From: an uncultured Oscillospiraceae bacterium
GTDB lineage: Bacteria; Bacillota; Clostridia; Oscillospirales; Oscillospiraceae
DNA length: 64,000 bases
Assembly (NCBI GenBank): GCA_944387075.1
Contig: CALXDO010000004.1
Location: 20,719-84,718 of the forward strand
Direction of reading: 5' to 3'
A program made the position numbers and the translations under genes. The notes below the pieces were generated by a model, which searched no databases, had not been told where the DNA came from, and saw only the letters and a list, made by a program, of their open reading frames with translations. Below are positions 88-26,908 of the stretch, in pieces (the first letter of the stretch is position 1; each line of letters starts with the position of its first letter).

Positions 88-129
88 AACACAAAAACGC
101 TGAGGCGAGGGCCTCAGCGTTTTTGTGTT
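88..129. terminator. Perfect bidirectional intrinsic terminator
   Basis: A 19-bp perfect stem (88-106 with 111-129) has a 4-nt loop (GAGG). The outer stem has an A-tract on one side and a T-tract on the other, so it can end transcription in both directions: the plus-strand gene ending at 83 and the minus-strand small RNA starting near 188. Confidence 0.85.
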
Positions 130-188
130 AGTTTGAAAGAGAAAAGAGAGAGGGAGGATGTTCAATTGATTTGCTACTTCTTCCTGAC
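90..188 (-). ncRNA. Candidate CU-rich small RNA, copy 1
   Basis: Read on the minus strand, an extended -10 (TGG TATGAT, 195-200) lies 6 nt before a predicted start at 188. The transcript would begin GTCAGGAAGAA, pass through a CU-rich stretch containing CCTCCCTCTCTC (about 159-136) and end in the terminator at 88-129, about 99 nt in all. A second unit at 352-451 shares the -10, the 5' end and an identical 24-nt CU stretch, but has a different terminator. The CCTCC core complements the Shine-Dalgarno GGAGG, as in known CU-rich regulatory RNAs of Firmicutes. No conserved ORF explains the shared blocks on either strand. It could instead be a decayed intergenic duplication. Confidence 0.55.
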
Positions 189-194
189 AAGTGC

Positions 195-221
195 ATCATA
201 CCAGAGTGGGGGTAGGCAGTG
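195..221 (-). promoter_or_regulatory. Promoter of small RNA copy 1
   Basis: Minus-strand TATGAT (195-200) has an upstream TG (extended -10). No TTGACA-like -35 is visible. Instead a block reading CACTGCCTACCCCC (208-221) is shared, with two changes, with the promoter of copy 2. This suggests an activator or alternative recognition site. Confidence 0.45.
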
Positions 222-351
222 ATGGATAAAATGAGAATCTTTTGTGAAGGAATTATGAATGCTGGGCTGTGGCATGACCGTTGCAAAGATTCCCGCCATC
301 CAGTAGCTAAATCAATCGAAGTTGCCCATTTTTACAGATGCACCCCTGGAA
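222..351. other. Spacer between the two small-RNA units
   Basis: No ORF with a ribosome binding site, hairpin or recognisable RNA motif was seen between the promoter of copy 1 and the end of copy 2. Confidence 0.5.
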
Positions 352-451
352 AATGGAAACCCCCTCCGGTTGGGCGACCGGAGGGGGTTTTCTAGAAAAG
401 AGAAAAGAGAGAGGGAGGATTTTGAAAAAGTCTGATGTGTTTCTTCCTGAC
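352..451 (-). ncRNA. Candidate CU-rich small RNA, copy 2
   Basis: This has the same layout as copy 1: extended -10 TGC TATGAT (458-463), predicted start at 451, 5' end GTCAGGAAGAA, an identical 24-nt CU-rich segment (420-397) and a terminator hairpin (357-390). The predicted length is 95-100 nt. The terminator sequence is unrelated to that of copy 1, while the 5' end, CU stretch and promoter are conserved. That is the pattern expected if the RNA, rather than the whole DNA block, is under selection. The unit lies downstream of dacA on the same strand, so dacA read-through could also end here. Confidence 0.55.
357..390. terminator. GC-rich hairpin terminator
   Basis: A 14-bp perfect stem (357-370 with 377-390) has loop TGGGCG. 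T residues follow on both sides, weakly on the minus strand (TTTCCATTTTCC). It ends the copy 2 small RNA and possibly dacA read-through. Confidence 0.75.
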
Positions 452-457
452 ACCCTT

Positions 458-484
458 ATCATAGCAAAGAGGGGGCAGGAAGTG
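458..484 (-). promoter_or_regulatory. Promoter of small RNA copy 2
   Basis: Minus-strand TATGAT (458-463) is preceded by TGC, with the block CACTTCCTGCCCCC upstream (471-484) in place of a normal -35. It matches the copy 1 promoter in both elements and in spacing. Confidence 0.45.
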
Positions 485-531: not shown

Positions 532-1902
532 TTAGCGACGACCGCCTCGGTATCCGCCGCGACGCCGGGAGCCGGAGTACTTGCGGCGGCCCCGCTGGGC
601 AGGACGGATCAAAACCAAGTACAGTACCCCGAGAATCAGAAGAATCACCACCACAACCACCAGCAGCTTGACCCACCACAGGGCCCAAGTCTCCTGAATC
701 ACCTTCATCGCATATTGGAAGTTGGAACGCTGCACATCGTCAGTGGCCACCATATCCAAAGTGCCGTAGGTCACCCCGTTGTACACCAGGGACACGCTGC
801 CCACCACCTGGCCTTTGGTGACCGGGGCTTCCAGGCTCTCTGGTAGGTTCATCACCAGTTCTGCCTGGGCGGGATCGTAGTCGGAGGGAATGGTGGCCTC
901 AATGGAGCCGGAGGGCTGCGCCAGCACATGGCCGGTGTCCCCAGAGAGGGTGACAGGGATTTCCCGAATGACATCGTCCGAGGTCTCACTGAGCAGGGTG
1001 GTGCGCTGGAAATTCTGGAAGGCCCACTCCAGCAGGCGGGAACTTTCGCTGAAGGAGTAGAAGTGCCAGTTTCCGGCGTCATCCTGGGCATACTCAGACC
1101 CCAACACCACGCAGTAGAAAGTGCGGCCCTGGCTGTCTACGGCGGCAGAGGCCAGGCAGCGGCCTGCCTCCTCCGTGTAGCCGGTCTTGATGCCAATGGC
1201 CTTGGAATAGAGACAGCCGGCCACGTTCCAGTTGCTGATCAGGGCGTTGGTGCTGTGCAGCACACGGGGCTCCGAGACCTTGTTGGTGGGCTCCAGGGTG
1301 TAAGTGGGGGTGGAGACGATGGTGCGGAAAATGTCGTACTGCATGGCAGCCGCGGCCATGAGATAGATGTCATAGGCGGTGGTGTAGTGATTGGGGTCAT
1401 GGAGACCGTGTGGATTTGTAAAGTGGGTGCCGGTCATGCCCAGCTCAGCGGCGGTCTGATTCATACGCTCCACAAATTCCGCCTGGGTGTCGCATAGGGA
1501 CTCGGCCAGAATGTTACAGGCTTCGTTGCCCGACGGAACCAGATCACAGTAGAGCAGCTGCTCTATGGTGAGCACTTCCCCCTCTACGATACCGGCGGTG
1601 GAACTGCCTTCGGGGAGAGTGACGGCCTCCTTGGAAGCGGTAACCTGGGTGTCCAGGGACAATTCTTTGGCATCAATGGCCCGGAGAATTACTAGGGTGG
1701 TCATGATTTTGGTCACCGAAGCGGGATAACGCTTTTCGTGGGCGTTATAATCATAGAGCACCTCGTTGTTGTCTCCATCCACCACAATGGCAGCGGTACA
1801 GTGAGGCTTCGGGTCGTCCAGTGCAAAAGCGGGGATGCTTAAAGAAATCGCCACAACCAGGGCGGTGGCCAATGCCAGTCCACGGCGTAAGTATTTTTTC
1901 AT
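532..1902 (-). CDS. dacA: D-alanyl-D-alanine carboxypeptidase (PBP5-like, S11)
   Basis: This is a penicillin-binding serine DD-carboxypeptidase that removes the terminal D-Ala from peptidoglycan stem peptides outside the cell. The 456 residues begin with a signal peptide (about 1-27, cleavage near AFA). The three S11 motifs are complete: SVTK (S62, K65), SGN (124-126) and KTG (239-241). A C-terminal PBP5 beta domain follows, then one membrane segment (about 407-430) and a very basic Arg/Gly tail (RRKYSGSRRRGGYRGGRR), which would hold the enzyme at the membrane. The ATG is preceded by AGGAGA. It is transcribed away from the comEA-like gene. The Arg-rich tail is longer than in typical PBP5 proteins. 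Confidence 0.93.
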   Translation of the reverse strand: MKKYLRRGLALATALVVAISLSIPAFALDDPKPHCTAAIVVDGDNNEVLYDYNAHEKRYPASVTKIMTTLVILRAIDAKELSLDTQVTASKEAVTLPEGSSTAGIVEGEVLTIEQLLYCDLVPSGNEACNILAESLCDTQAEFVERMNQTAAELGMTGTHFTNPHGLHDPNHYTTAYDIYLMAAAAMQYDIFRTIVSTPTYTLEPTNKVSEPRVLHSTNALISNWNVAGCLYSKAIGIKTGYTEEAGRCLASAAVDSQGRTFYCVVLGSEYAQDDAGNWHFYSFSESSRLLEWAFQNFQRTTLLSETSDDVIREIPVTLSGDTGHVLAQPSGSIEATIPSDYDPAQAELVMNLPESLEAPVTKGQVVGSVSLVYNGVTYGTLDMVATDDVQRSNFQYAMKVIQETWALWWVKLLVVVVVILLILGVLYLVLIRPAQRGRRKYSGSRRRGGYRGGRR

Positions 1903-2054
1903 ATGCTTCTCCTGTAAATTATGTTATAATGTGAAAATGTAAAAGTGTGAAAGTGGGCACACAGGGACAACCCCTGATTGCACATTTATAGTTACTATAA
2001 CAGAGTTGAGAAAAAAACGCAACTAAGCAGCGAGGAAAAAGGGGTGCTGGAAAT

Positions 2055-2396
2055 ATGTGGCGTAGAGGCAGAGTGCTGGGAGCAGTGCTGTGCGGGATGA
2101 TTCTGGCCATGAGTGCAGTCTGGCTGGTGCGCCAGGGAAGTTTTGACACCTTAGAGCTGCGCCCGGGACCTCAGTCGGGGGTGGAATTTTCCGTTGTGGA
2201 CCGGGGCAAGGTGAACATCAACCTGGCCACCCGGGAGCAGTTGGAGACGCTGCCCGGCATTGGGCCGGAACTGGCTGGGTCCATTGTGCGCTATCGGGAG
2301 ACTCATGGGCCGTTTGAATACGCCGAGCACCTCATCGAAGTGCCGGGGATCAACAAGACCATGATGGAAACGCTGCTGGAACGGATTGCAGTTTAG
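2055..2396 (+). CDS. ComEA-like helix-hairpin-helix protein
   Basis: This is a small (113 aa) membrane-anchored DNA-binding protein. Residues about 8-27 form an N-terminal membrane segment. The C-terminal half is a ComEA-type double helix-hairpin-helix: NINLATREQLETLPGIGPE, then FEYAEHLIEVPGINK. In the ComEA family this domain binds DNA during competence uptake. The protein is shorter than Bacillus ComEA because the SLBB-type linker domain is missing, and no comEB or comEC is adjacent. It starts the plus-strand group that continues with the response regulator 24 bp downstream. The assignment to DNA uptake is inference. Confidence 0.8.
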   Translation: MWRRGRVLGAVLCGMILAMSAVWLVRQGSFDTLELRPGPQSGVEFSVVDRGKVNINLATREQLETLPGIGPELAGSIVRYRETHGPFEYAEHLIEVPGINKTMMETLLERIAV

Positions 2397-2420: not shown

Positions 2421-3116
2421 ATGCCCAATATCCTTGTGGTGGACGATGAGCGTCTGCTGGTAAAGGGAATCAAATTTAACTTGGAAAACGAAGGCTACCA
2501 GGTGGAGACGGGGAGTGACGGGGAGGAGGCGGTGGAACTGGCCCGCACAGGCCGCTTTGACCTGATTATCCTAGACCTGATGATGCCCAAAATTGACGGG
2601 CTTCATGCGTGCATGAAAATCCGGGAGTTCTCCAATGTCCCCATCATCATGCTCACAGCCAAGGGGGAGGATGCAGACAAAATTATGGGCTTTGAGTGTG
2701 GCGCGGATGACTACATCACCAAGCCTTTTAATATTTTGGAGGTGAAGGCCCGGATTCGGGCCTTACTGCGCCGTGCAGGAACGGCTTCTCAGCAAAAAAA
2801 GGTGGGAAATAGCCTGGTGCACGGGGCCATCACCCTGGACTTGGATCAGCGGGTGGCGCGCCGGGATGGACAGGTTGTGGATCTGACGGCGAAGGAATTT
2901 GATTTGATGGAGTTGCTCATGCGCAATCCGGGGCGGGTGTACAGCCGGGAAAACCTGCTCAATGTGGTGTGGGGATACGAGTATGTGGGAGAATTTCGCA
3001 CGGTGGATGTGCATGTTCGCCGTTTGCGGGAGAAGCTGGAGCCAGACCCTGCCAACCCCACCTATATTCTCACCAAGTGGGGGGTAGGGTACTACCTGAG
3101 CAGTGAATGCCCATGA
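2421..3116 (+). CDS. OmpR/PhoB-family response regulator
   Basis: This 231-residue protein has a receiver domain (1-120) with the acidic pair at D8/D9, phospho-acceptor D52 in the LDLMMP context and Lys in ITKPF. A C-terminal winged-helix DNA-binding domain (about 132-228) ends in the usual VDVHVRRLREK and GVGYYL signatures. It resembles PhoP/WalR-type regulators, but the exact orthologue cannot be fixed. AGGGAGGA precedes the ATG. Its stop overlaps the start of the histidine kinase gene, so the two are translationally coupled. The two-component pair sits between a ComEA-like gene and a GerMN lipoprotein, which suggests a role at the cell envelope. Confidence 0.93.
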   Translation: MPNILVVDDERLLVKGIKFNLENEGYQVETGSDGEEAVELARTGRFDLIILDLMMPKIDGLHACMKIREFSNVPIIMLTAKGEDADKIMGFECGADDYITKPFNILEVKARIRALLRRAGTASQQKKVGNSLVHGAITLDLDQRVARRDGQVVDLTAKEFDLMELLMRNPGRVYSRENLLNVVWGYEYVGEFRTVDVHVRRLREKLEPDPANPTYILTKWGVGYYLSSECP

Positions 3117-4612
3117 TGAGACGGATGTGGAAGCGATGGCGACGGAGAGTGCGCCGCGAAAATTTGGTGCTCAAAGCGGGAGAGGTGCCCTTTTTTCGCA
3201 GTTTGCAAGCCAAATATGTGGTCACTTACCTAATGCTGGTGGTGGTCATTGTGTTGGTGCTCAACACCTATCCGCTGCTGATGGCCCAAAATGTGGTGTT
3301 TTCTGCCAAGGAGACCTCTTTGAAACGGCAGGCGCTCACCATTGCAAATGCCCTGGCGGTGTCGGAGACACTCACTCAGGAGAGTGTAACCCAGGCCATG
3401 GAACTGCTGGACGACATGCAGGGGACCCGAGTGCTGGTGACGGATGAGTCGGGAGTCATTCTCTATGACAGCTCCGGTCTGGACAATCGAACTGGCAACT
3501 ATGCCATCGTCGCTGAGGTGGTGGCGGCGCTGAGGGGATCGGACGTGTGTCGGGCAGAATACCGGCAGGGAGCGTTCCGCACCCGTGTGGCAGTACCGGC
3601 TGTGTATCGTGGGGTGACCCTGGGGGCCGTGTACCTCTACGAGTACGACACCGAGCAGGCCGAGGTGCTTCTCTCCATTCAGTCCAATCTGCGGTATATT
3701 TCTCTGGTGATCTGTGTGGTAGCTCTGGGGGCTTCTCTGATCCTGTCCAAGGCTCTGACCCGCAACACGTCCCGGCTTTTGGGCGGCATTCGCTCGGTGC
3801 GGGAGGGCGAGTACAGCCACCGGGTGCAGGTGCAGGGCAAGGACGAAATGGCCCAGCTGGCCATGGAGTTTAACCAGCTCACTGACCGTCTCCAGACCAT
3901 CGAGGAAGTGCGGCGGCGGTTTGTCTCGGATGCCTCCCACGAGTTGAAAACGCCCCTGGCCTCCATCCGCCTGTTGGCCGATTCCATTTTACAAAATGAT
4001 TCGGTGGACATGGAGACGGTGCGGGAATTTGTCTCGGACATCGGAGAGGAGGCAGACCGGCTGACCCGGATCAGCCAGCGTCTGCTCACCCTCACAAAGC
4101 TGGACTCCAATCCCCAGCGCAAGCGGGTGCCGGTGGACGTGGGACAGCTGGTGGAGAAGGTAGGGCACATGCTGCTGCCTTTGGCGCAGTCGGTGCAGGT
4201 GGAATTGGTGTATCACCTTCAGCCTCACTGTGTGGTGCTGGCCACCGAGGATGATCTCTACCAAGTGGCCTTCAACCTGATGGAGAATGCGGTCAAGTAC
4301 AATCTGCCCGAAGGCCGGGTGGAGGTGTGGGTGTACCAGGAAGAGGGGCAAATTACCTTGGCGGTACAGGACACTGGCGTGGGCATTCCAGAGGAGGATT
4401 TGCCCCGGATTTTTGAGCGATTTTATCGGGTGGACAAGGCCCGCTCCCGCCAGGCGGGGGGAACCGGGCTGGGATTGTCCATTGCCCGTGACACAGCCCG
4501 GCTCCACGGCGGCGATATTACAGCCCAGCCGGGACCGGATGGGGTGGGGGCCAGATTCGTGGCCCAATTTCCCGCCGCTGCCCAAGGAGGTGTGGAAGAT
4601 GAAGAGATATAA
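3107..4612 (+). CDS. Sensor histidine kinase
   Basis: This is the partner kinase of the upstream regulator (501 aa). Its order is a basic N-terminus, membrane segment 1 (about 38-58), an extracytoplasmic sensor region (60-190), membrane segment 2 (about 197-215), HAMP (216-268), HisKA with H278 in SDASHELKTPLAS, and HATPase_c with the N box (NLMENAVKYN), G1 (DTGVGIPEED), F box and G2 (GGTGLGLS). The start ATG at 3107 overlaps the regulator stop by 10 bp; ATGs at 3113 and 3116 are alternatives. The 3' end overlaps the next gene by 14 bp, indicating a single operon. The signal sensed is unknown. Confidence 0.92.
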   Translation: MPMMRRMWKRWRRRVRRENLVLKAGEVPFFRSLQAKYVVTYLMLVVVIVLVLNTYPLLMAQNVVFSAKETSLKRQALTIANALAVSETLTQESVTQAMELLDDMQGTRVLVTDESGVILYDSSGLDNRTGNYAIVAEVVAALRGSDVCRAEYRQGAFRTRVAVPAVYRGVTLGAVYLYEYDTEQAEVLLSIQSNLRYISLVICVVALGASLILSKALTRNTSRLLGGIRSVREGEYSHRVQVQGKDEMAQLAMEFNQLTDRLQTIEEVRRRFVSDASHELKTPLASIRLLADSILQNDSVDMETVREFVSDIGEEADRLTRISQRLLTLTKLDSNPQRKRVPVDVGQLVEKVGHMLLPLAQSVQVELVYHLQPHCVVLATEDDLYQVAFNLMENAVKYNLPEGRVEVWVYQEEGQITLAVQDTGVGIPEEDLPRIFERFYRVDKARSRQAGGTGLGLSIARDTARLHGGDITAQPGPDGVGARFVAQFPAAAQGGVEDEEI

Positions 4613-26764: not shown

Positions 26765-26819
26765 GAAAAACTCTTTGCACTGCATTACATCCCAATGGGA
26801 TGCGAGATCAACAGTACAA

Positions 26820-26904
26820 ACTGAGCAGGCGATGAACCGAAGGGTCATGGGGCCGGGCCTCCTTGTGTGGCAGCAGATGGTTTTTCAAACATCTGTGGGA
26901 CAGT
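26820..26904 (+). promoter_or_regulatory. NiCo (czcD) metal-ion riboswitch aptamer
   Basis: The RNA-type sequence carries the conserved strands of the NiCo/czcD class in order: ACTGAGCAGGC, ATGA...GTCAT arm, GGGCCGGGCC junction, GGCAGCAGATG with a CATCTG return arm, and the closing TGTGGGACAGT. ACTG/CAGT, extended outward by flanking bases, closes the P1 helix. Characterised members bind Co2+ and Ni2+ cooperatively, and Fe2+ sensing has also been proposed. They activate efflux genes. It sits directly upstream of a cation diffusion facilitator gene, which agrees with this. The assignment is from remembered consensus, not a covariance search. Confidence 0.88.
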
Positions 26905-26908
26905 TGTA

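Follow-up and report, generated by a model that had tools for sequence, protein, structure and literature searches.

Near one end of a 64,000-nt stretch of DNA from an uncultured Oscillospiraceae bacterium (the window), the minus strand carries a pair of similar units separated by about 260 bp, raising the question of whether they are small RNA genes and, if so, what controls them and what they act upon. The two units, A and B, could be read directly from the sequence, with 5' ends at 451 and 188, respectively. As stated in the original prediction, they have in common an extended -10 element, the 5' end GTCAGGAAGAA, and a 24-nt CU-rich block (the CU block). A repeat search recovered the CU blocks as a 30-nt direct repeat (93%) and the promoters as an 84-nt repeat (70%), with spacings between the units of 261 and 263. 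Both units display the same order of elements: tandem elements spaced by 11 bp, a variable spacer, the extended -10, the presumed +1, a variable linker, the CU block, and a strong GC hairpin. The presumed +1 is the G of GTCAGGAAGAA, at 451 and 188, with the correct spacing to the -10.

Unit A (350-451, minus strand, as for all features of both units) is a predicted small RNA gene of ~95-102 nt identified from sequence, conservation, and fold, its 3' end being an estimate from the hairpin. The operator, defined by alignment and promoter-model match, contains the 11-bp-spaced repeats TTCATG, TTCATA, TTTCAA, and GACAACA (483-522), and is followed by the extended -10 TGCTATGAT (458-466), the CU block ATCCTCCCTCTCTCTTTTCTCTTT, which is the proposed pairing region (397-420), and a terminator hairpin formed by a 14-bp perfect inverted repeat (357-390). 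Unit B (82-188) is a predicted small RNA gene of ~100-107 nt, identified by a terminator scan in addition to the same three lines of evidence. It comprises the repeats TTCATA, TTCACA, TTCTCA, and TCCATCA (220-259; alignment and promoter-model match), the extended -10 TGGTATGAT (195-203), a CU block identical over its 24 nt to that of unit A (136-159; sequence and repeat search), and a terminator hairpin with 24-nt arms that are 92% complementary (83-134; stem called by the scan at 129-88). In 12 aligned units, the TGnTA and the final T of the extended -10 are invariant. The terminator stems of A and B show no mutual resemblance, in agreement with the claim that the terminators are unrelated. 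The terminator of unit A, which has a less U-rich tail, was not called by the scan that called the one of unit B; an arm of the former also contains CCTCC, though paired.

Coding genes were set aside since no ATG, GTG, or TTG precedes the terminator in unit A and a single TTG does so in unit B. A mobile element origin was also rejected since positions 80-520 of the window had no match among 50,697 phage and 72,556 plasmid records. In both window RNAs, most of the CU block is predicted to be unpaired. A hairpin follows the CU block in all distinct units that were folded (69/69; -20.8 to -48.6 kcal/mol). Many units additionally have a short 5' hairpin starting at the first base, for which covariation is weak (one compensatory pair, not above shuffles).

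Conservation was assessed by pattern and model searches. The exact pattern GTCAGGAAGAA-N20-40-CCTCCCTCTC was found in 8 of 60 relatives (own genome counted), each of which is one of the 37 genomes belonging to the genus, and its reversed form had 0 matches. In a collection of 84,980 species genomes, GTCAGG-N12-42-CCTCCCTCTCTCTTTTCTC matched exactly in 34 stretches; named records matched include Pseudoflavonifractor sp. An44 and An85, P. capillosus An386a, and Candidatus Enterenecus, the other titles being Oscillospiraceae, Clostridiales, Bacillota, or unclassified bacteria. A sequence model extending from the operator to the CU block and built from 12 units (R1) matched 41 of the 42 genomes of the genus (E up to 0.01); in 11 of the 42, a pair of strong matches lies within a short distance on a single contig. 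Six species contain recognizable versions of both types, A and B, and the duplication therefore predates those species.

For the six species having both tandem copies, mean pairwise identity was computed separately for types A and B. It was high in the operator boxes (89.5% for A and 87.0% for B), low in the spacer (47.3% and 46.7%), high again in the extended -10 (84.4% and 88.1%), and low in the discriminator (50.0% and 40.0%). Identity reached 100% for both types in the first 11 nt and 100% and 77.0% in the first 18 nt of the CU block. Because the 5' end and the CU block served in part to pick out the units, the figures for these two parts are inflated; boxes, spacer, and terminator played no role in the selection. 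The linker (73.0% and 59.9%) and the 60 nt following the CU block (50.6% and 57.6%) were less conserved. In type B, the CT repeats of the CU block vary in length, and CTCCTCCC is present in one of the six species. Selection on an RNA, as originally proposed, is well supported by this conservation mosaic, by the occurrence of the same layout at different genomic places, and by promoter-only searches that reach pyrimidine-rich RNA genes in other genera (see below). We give almost no credence to chance or to a recent functionless duplication: two-copy repeats often do arise by chance, and nothing else was found in favor of this explanation, but it is refuted at the sequence level by the mosaic, the family-wide promoter, and the 41 matching genomes, which are not what an ordinary decaying duplication would leave. 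The small-RNA reading of both units is well supported by sequence comparison.

The operator consensus TTCAYA-N5-TTCAYA-N5-TTCTCA-N5-TCCAACA consists of tandem 11-bp repeats located where a -35 element would be. A sigma-70 scan of positions 1-700 of the window called no -35/-10 pair because the -35 is absent, its place being occupied by the last repeat. Such an arrangement, with direct repeats in 11-bp register substituting for the -35, is typical of OmpR/PhoB-family activators, and the alignments revealed here this feature of two-component-controlled small RNAs. We therefore infer control by a two-component system. PhoP is an improbable candidate for the regulator, a role that would make the transcripts phosphate-starvation RNAs. 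TTCACA and TTCATA in 11-bp register do fit the B. subtilis PhoP consensus, but the main pstS promoter carries TTTACA-N5-TTTACA instead in 6/6 congeners, three weaker PstS-like genes carry neither box, and the pst locus is absent from the matches to the four-box pattern in three genomes. The Pho regulon was set aside on the basis of the box of the main pstS promoter, which differs from that of the units in the same genome.

To which genes does this operator belong? A promoter-only model built from 36 sequences (R2) was applied to eight congeners together with four further members of the family. In the eight congeners, 30 sites were obtained at E < 1e-5, the next match appearing only at 0.004. 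Judged from sequence, all 30 head RNA units: 16 of the present type, 8 encoding a shorter CU RNA with a 5' hairpin (e.g. L069), for a total of 24 CU-rich units, and 6 encoding a structured RNA of the L068 type. Frames starting within 150 nt were listed at 22 of the 30 sites, some of them long (up to 309 codons), with a best agreement to AGGAGG of 4 out of 6. Allowing up to two mismatches, the four-box pattern identified 9 sites in three genomes, corresponding to the tandem units and the structured RNA, and its reversed version identified 0. In the own genome, this promoter heads four genes: besides the tandem pair, there is a shorter CU-rich RNA located after an amidase gene, and a structured RNA of a different kind. 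The latter RNA is ~170 nt long and conserved with the same operator (L068:2117-2287 in G000:C95; also L070, L071, L072, L146, and L158). It has no Rfam match, and its consensus fold contains three main hairpins in which 5 of 49 pairs are changed on both sides. A sponge function was rejected for the G000:C95 copy, which avoids pairing with the CU block: 95% of 300 shuffles equaled or beat the most stable duplex between the two (-10.0 kcal/mol).

Beyond the genus, R2 matched 60 of 200 genomes of the family, representing 41 of 106 genera (E up to 0.001), 23 of 394 genomes of the order (E up to 1e-4), 18 of which belong to the family, and 4 of 398 genomes of the phylum (E up to 1e-4). Two of the latter four are congeners, and the two matches outside the genus lead to protein genes. 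In other genera, a run of at least 13 pyrimidines was present within 150 nt at 25 of the 26 R2 matches for which the downstream sequence was read (23/24 without the two located at training places) versus 2.7% of 3,691 random windows from those loci. The one match lacking such a run, L150, looks like another structured RNA. The genome G298, from another genus (g38), has 8 strong promoter matches, the highest number observed (L075-L078, L160, and L170-L172), with long pyrimidine tracts in most. In several other genera (L043, L051, L074, L079, L261, L271, and L276), the hairpin after the CU tract terminates with a GACAGAC(C)AAA-like sequence, beyond which lies a second hairpin; these RNAs may be longer two-hairpin molecules.

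Outside the family, R2 matched three genomes from one genus of another family of the order (G232, G269, and G420). In a wider model search, 20 matches were obtained outside the family, including real-looking ones in G232 and G420; four others (L055 and L057-L059) look like protein genes or chance matches. The two tandem copies at the G232 locus have the repeats and an extended -10; their RNAs would open with a GUCGAU...AUCGAC hairpin and contain a pyrimidine tract devoid of CCUCC as well as a terminator hairpin. At loci L056 and L063 (G232:C8 and G420:C6), the RNA units occur in a diverged tandem version that has a compensating 5' hairpin and keeps the operator and the pyrimidine tract but not CCUCC. 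If true, this version would make the RNA scheme older than the family. In two other genomes outside the family (G054 and G295), similar promoters seem to be followed by protein genes, and the operator, given these cases, appears not to be RNA-specific everywhere.

Pairing of the CU block with ribosome binding sites through CCTCC, as originally proposed, is plausible because CCUCC is the anti-Shine-Dalgarno core and the block is mostly unpaired in the predicted folds. The search for extended complementary Shine-Dalgarno sequences gave a negative result that counts against the proposal, since AGAGGGAGG-N3-11-ATG had 45 matches in six genomes versus 42 for the reversed pattern, several of the 45 being the antisense of RNA units. 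In the six closest genomes, the ribosome-binding region of comEA (window 2031-2060), a gene adjoining dacF, shows unusually high complementarity to the CU block. Duplexes at the comEA start ranged from -15.1 to -22.2 kcal/mol in these genomes, values that come from orthologues and are not independent, and were mostly between -12 and -19 kcal/mol at its likely start in more distant congeners. For comparison, the median for 38 window genes was -11.2 kcal/mol, 18% of them reaching -15.1, and the start of the response-regulator gene itself was nearly as good as that of comEA in the closest genomes. We consider comEA as a candidate target and only as a lead. An unlikely but not negligible explanation is that the RNAs are decoys, in which the CU block titrates a pyrimidine-binding RNA-binding protein, much as RsmY and RsmZ titrate a different protein, and mRNA pairing is not the main action. 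The lack of excess of complementary Shine-Dalgarno sequences is in keeping with decoys, as are the several copies per genome and the behavior of the tract in other genera, where it stays pyrimidine-rich while its exact letters vary. Against this explanation, CCTCCCTCTC is nearly fixed within the genus, beyond the need of a loose pyrimidine site.

The gene neighborhood was searched for a regulator and a signal. The upstream neighbor of the units (532-1902, minus strand) encodes a dacF-like D-Ala-D-Ala carboxypeptidase (Pfam Peptidase_S11 and PBP5_C), and at many loci within the genus the RNA units have a dacF orthologue beside them. Further along, the plus strand encodes a WalR/PhoB-like response regulator of the OmpR family (2421-3116; below every NCBIfam cut-off shown), which is a candidate regulator by linkage only, and an adjoining histidine kinase (3107-4612; Pfam HisKA, HATPase_c, and HAMP). 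Elsewhere in the window, a NiCo (nickel/cobalt) riboswitch was detected on the plus strand (26811-26905; 82.1 bits). A WalR-like response regulator with at least 81% identity was found in 19 of 34 named loci, several of which are incomplete. None was found in the 8-kb loci L116, L120, L133, and L139, where the RNA lies beside another carboxypeptidase (~32% identity). A CiaR-like regulator abuts the RNA gene in G398 and is ~4 kb away in G125 and G332. Its kinase had only partial matches in G010, G018, and G003, and no CiaR-like pair was found nearby at the other non-genus loci searched. The CiaR-like pair was rejected as a general regulator since it adjoins the RNA gene only in G398. Neither of these candidate two-component systems is general across the loci.

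The shorter CU RNA lies directly behind the amidase gene in six of eight congeners (for G003 and G019, no amidase gene was found in the 1.5 kb of sequence read), and an RNA lies behind an amidase or an amidase plus LysM-GH18 gene in eight genera, present genus counted. These neighbors (D,D-carboxypeptidase, amidase, and LysM-GH18 hydrolase) suggest an envelope-related signal. The location of RNAs directly behind dacF, amidase, or LysM-GH18 genes would also be expected if they were 3' processing or termination elements of these cell-wall genes rather than independent regulators. We hold this to be very improbable since every copy, including the second of the tandem, retains its own operator and extended -10, and several copies, such as those in G003 and G019, have no such gene beside them.

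The units are probably independent genes for two paralogous trans-acting small RNAs placed under an OmpR/PhoB-type operator and blocking Shine-Dalgarno sequences. From the architecture, a phosphorylated response regulator of the OmpR/PhoB family would bind the 11-bp repeats and recruit the polymerase to the extended -10. According to sequence and predicted fold, the transcript would begin at GTCAGG, carry the mostly unpaired CU block, and end at an intrinsic terminator that is unconstrained in sequence. The CU block would then pair with purine-rich ribosome binding sites and block translation. A broader proposal, which we put forward as tentative, is that this two-component system of the Oscillospiraceae, a family abundant in the gut, has a strong regulon that is entirely non-coding, with CU-rich anti-Shine-Dalgarno RNAs and the structured RNA under one operator, an envelope signal being converted to protein changes entirely via RNA. 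Pseudoflavonifractor sp. An44 and An85 offer a concrete regulon in named strains. The operator repeats, the further genomic copies, and the wide distribution were not part of the original prediction and are newly seen.

The family of CU-rich RNA genes is apparently uncatalogued. In Rfam 15, the units had no match at the gathering score (best E of 0.28-0.55 for positions 1-540 of the window, on the plus strand and far below gathering), and no match above gathering was found at the RNA units of nine related loci. No description of this RNA family was found among the papers listed in the literature searches, nor any account of small RNA regulation in Flavonifractor and Pseudoflavonifractor in the open-licence literature. 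Among known multicopy RNAs, the Cuckoo RNAs of alphaproteobacteria carry the motif CCUCCUCCC in hairpin loops; they belong to another phylum, and no sequence relation to the units was found. RsmY and RsmZ, also from another phylum, bind protein via GGA motifs. Two-component systems with an RNA-only output are rare. The extreme case of RNA output cited in one article is GacAS, which acts via RsmY and RsmZ (PMC4132741), and this output through small RNAs is similar to that proposed here.

Closer parallels are found in low-GC Gram-positive bacteria. RsaE and other UCCC RNAs use a C-rich motif against Shine-Dalgarno sequences (PMC4132741); RsaE had no Rfam match here, and its promoter and layout differ. 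LhrC1-5 of Listeria are multicopy CU-rich RNAs that need the two-component system LisRK and block Shine-Dalgarno sequences by a UCCC motif (PMC4132741). Each LhrC RNA contains three CU sites that are redundant and partly located in loops, whereas a single-stranded tract is present once per RNA here; the arrangement of three sites in a stem-loop, a single strand, and a terminator loop was not found in the folds of the units, which had no Rfam match to LhrC either. The likeness to LhrC and RsaE put forward in the original prediction thus holds for the logic and not for the sequence. The csRNAs of the streptococcal CiaRH regulon comprise several similar small RNAs, in tandem copies in known cases, with hexamer-N5-hexamer repeats ahead of the -10 and an unpaired anti-Shine-Dalgarno stretch often located between two stem-loops (PMC3091779, PMC8186281). 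Their CiaR-driven promoters have direct repeats before the -10 and no -35 (PMC3091779). The units share with csRNAs, as described there, the multiple copies, the repeats before the -10, the unpaired anti-Shine-Dalgarno stretch, and the tandem copies. The csRNA box is TTTAAG, in two repeats located about 10 nt ahead of the -10, and the present one TTCAYA in three to four, and the 36 aligned promoters have TTCAYA-type repeats with no TTTAAG-N5-TTTAAG pair. The csRNAs had no sequence match to the units in Rfam and, unlike the strong sites found here, CiaR in the same accounts also drives protein genes (15 promoters, five of them for RNAs). From sequence comparison, the units most likely belong to a set of multicopy anti-Shine-Dalgarno small RNAs under one two-component system that work like LhrC and csRNAs without sequence kinship to them, which would represent a further, apparently independent, origin of the LhrC/csRNA logic.
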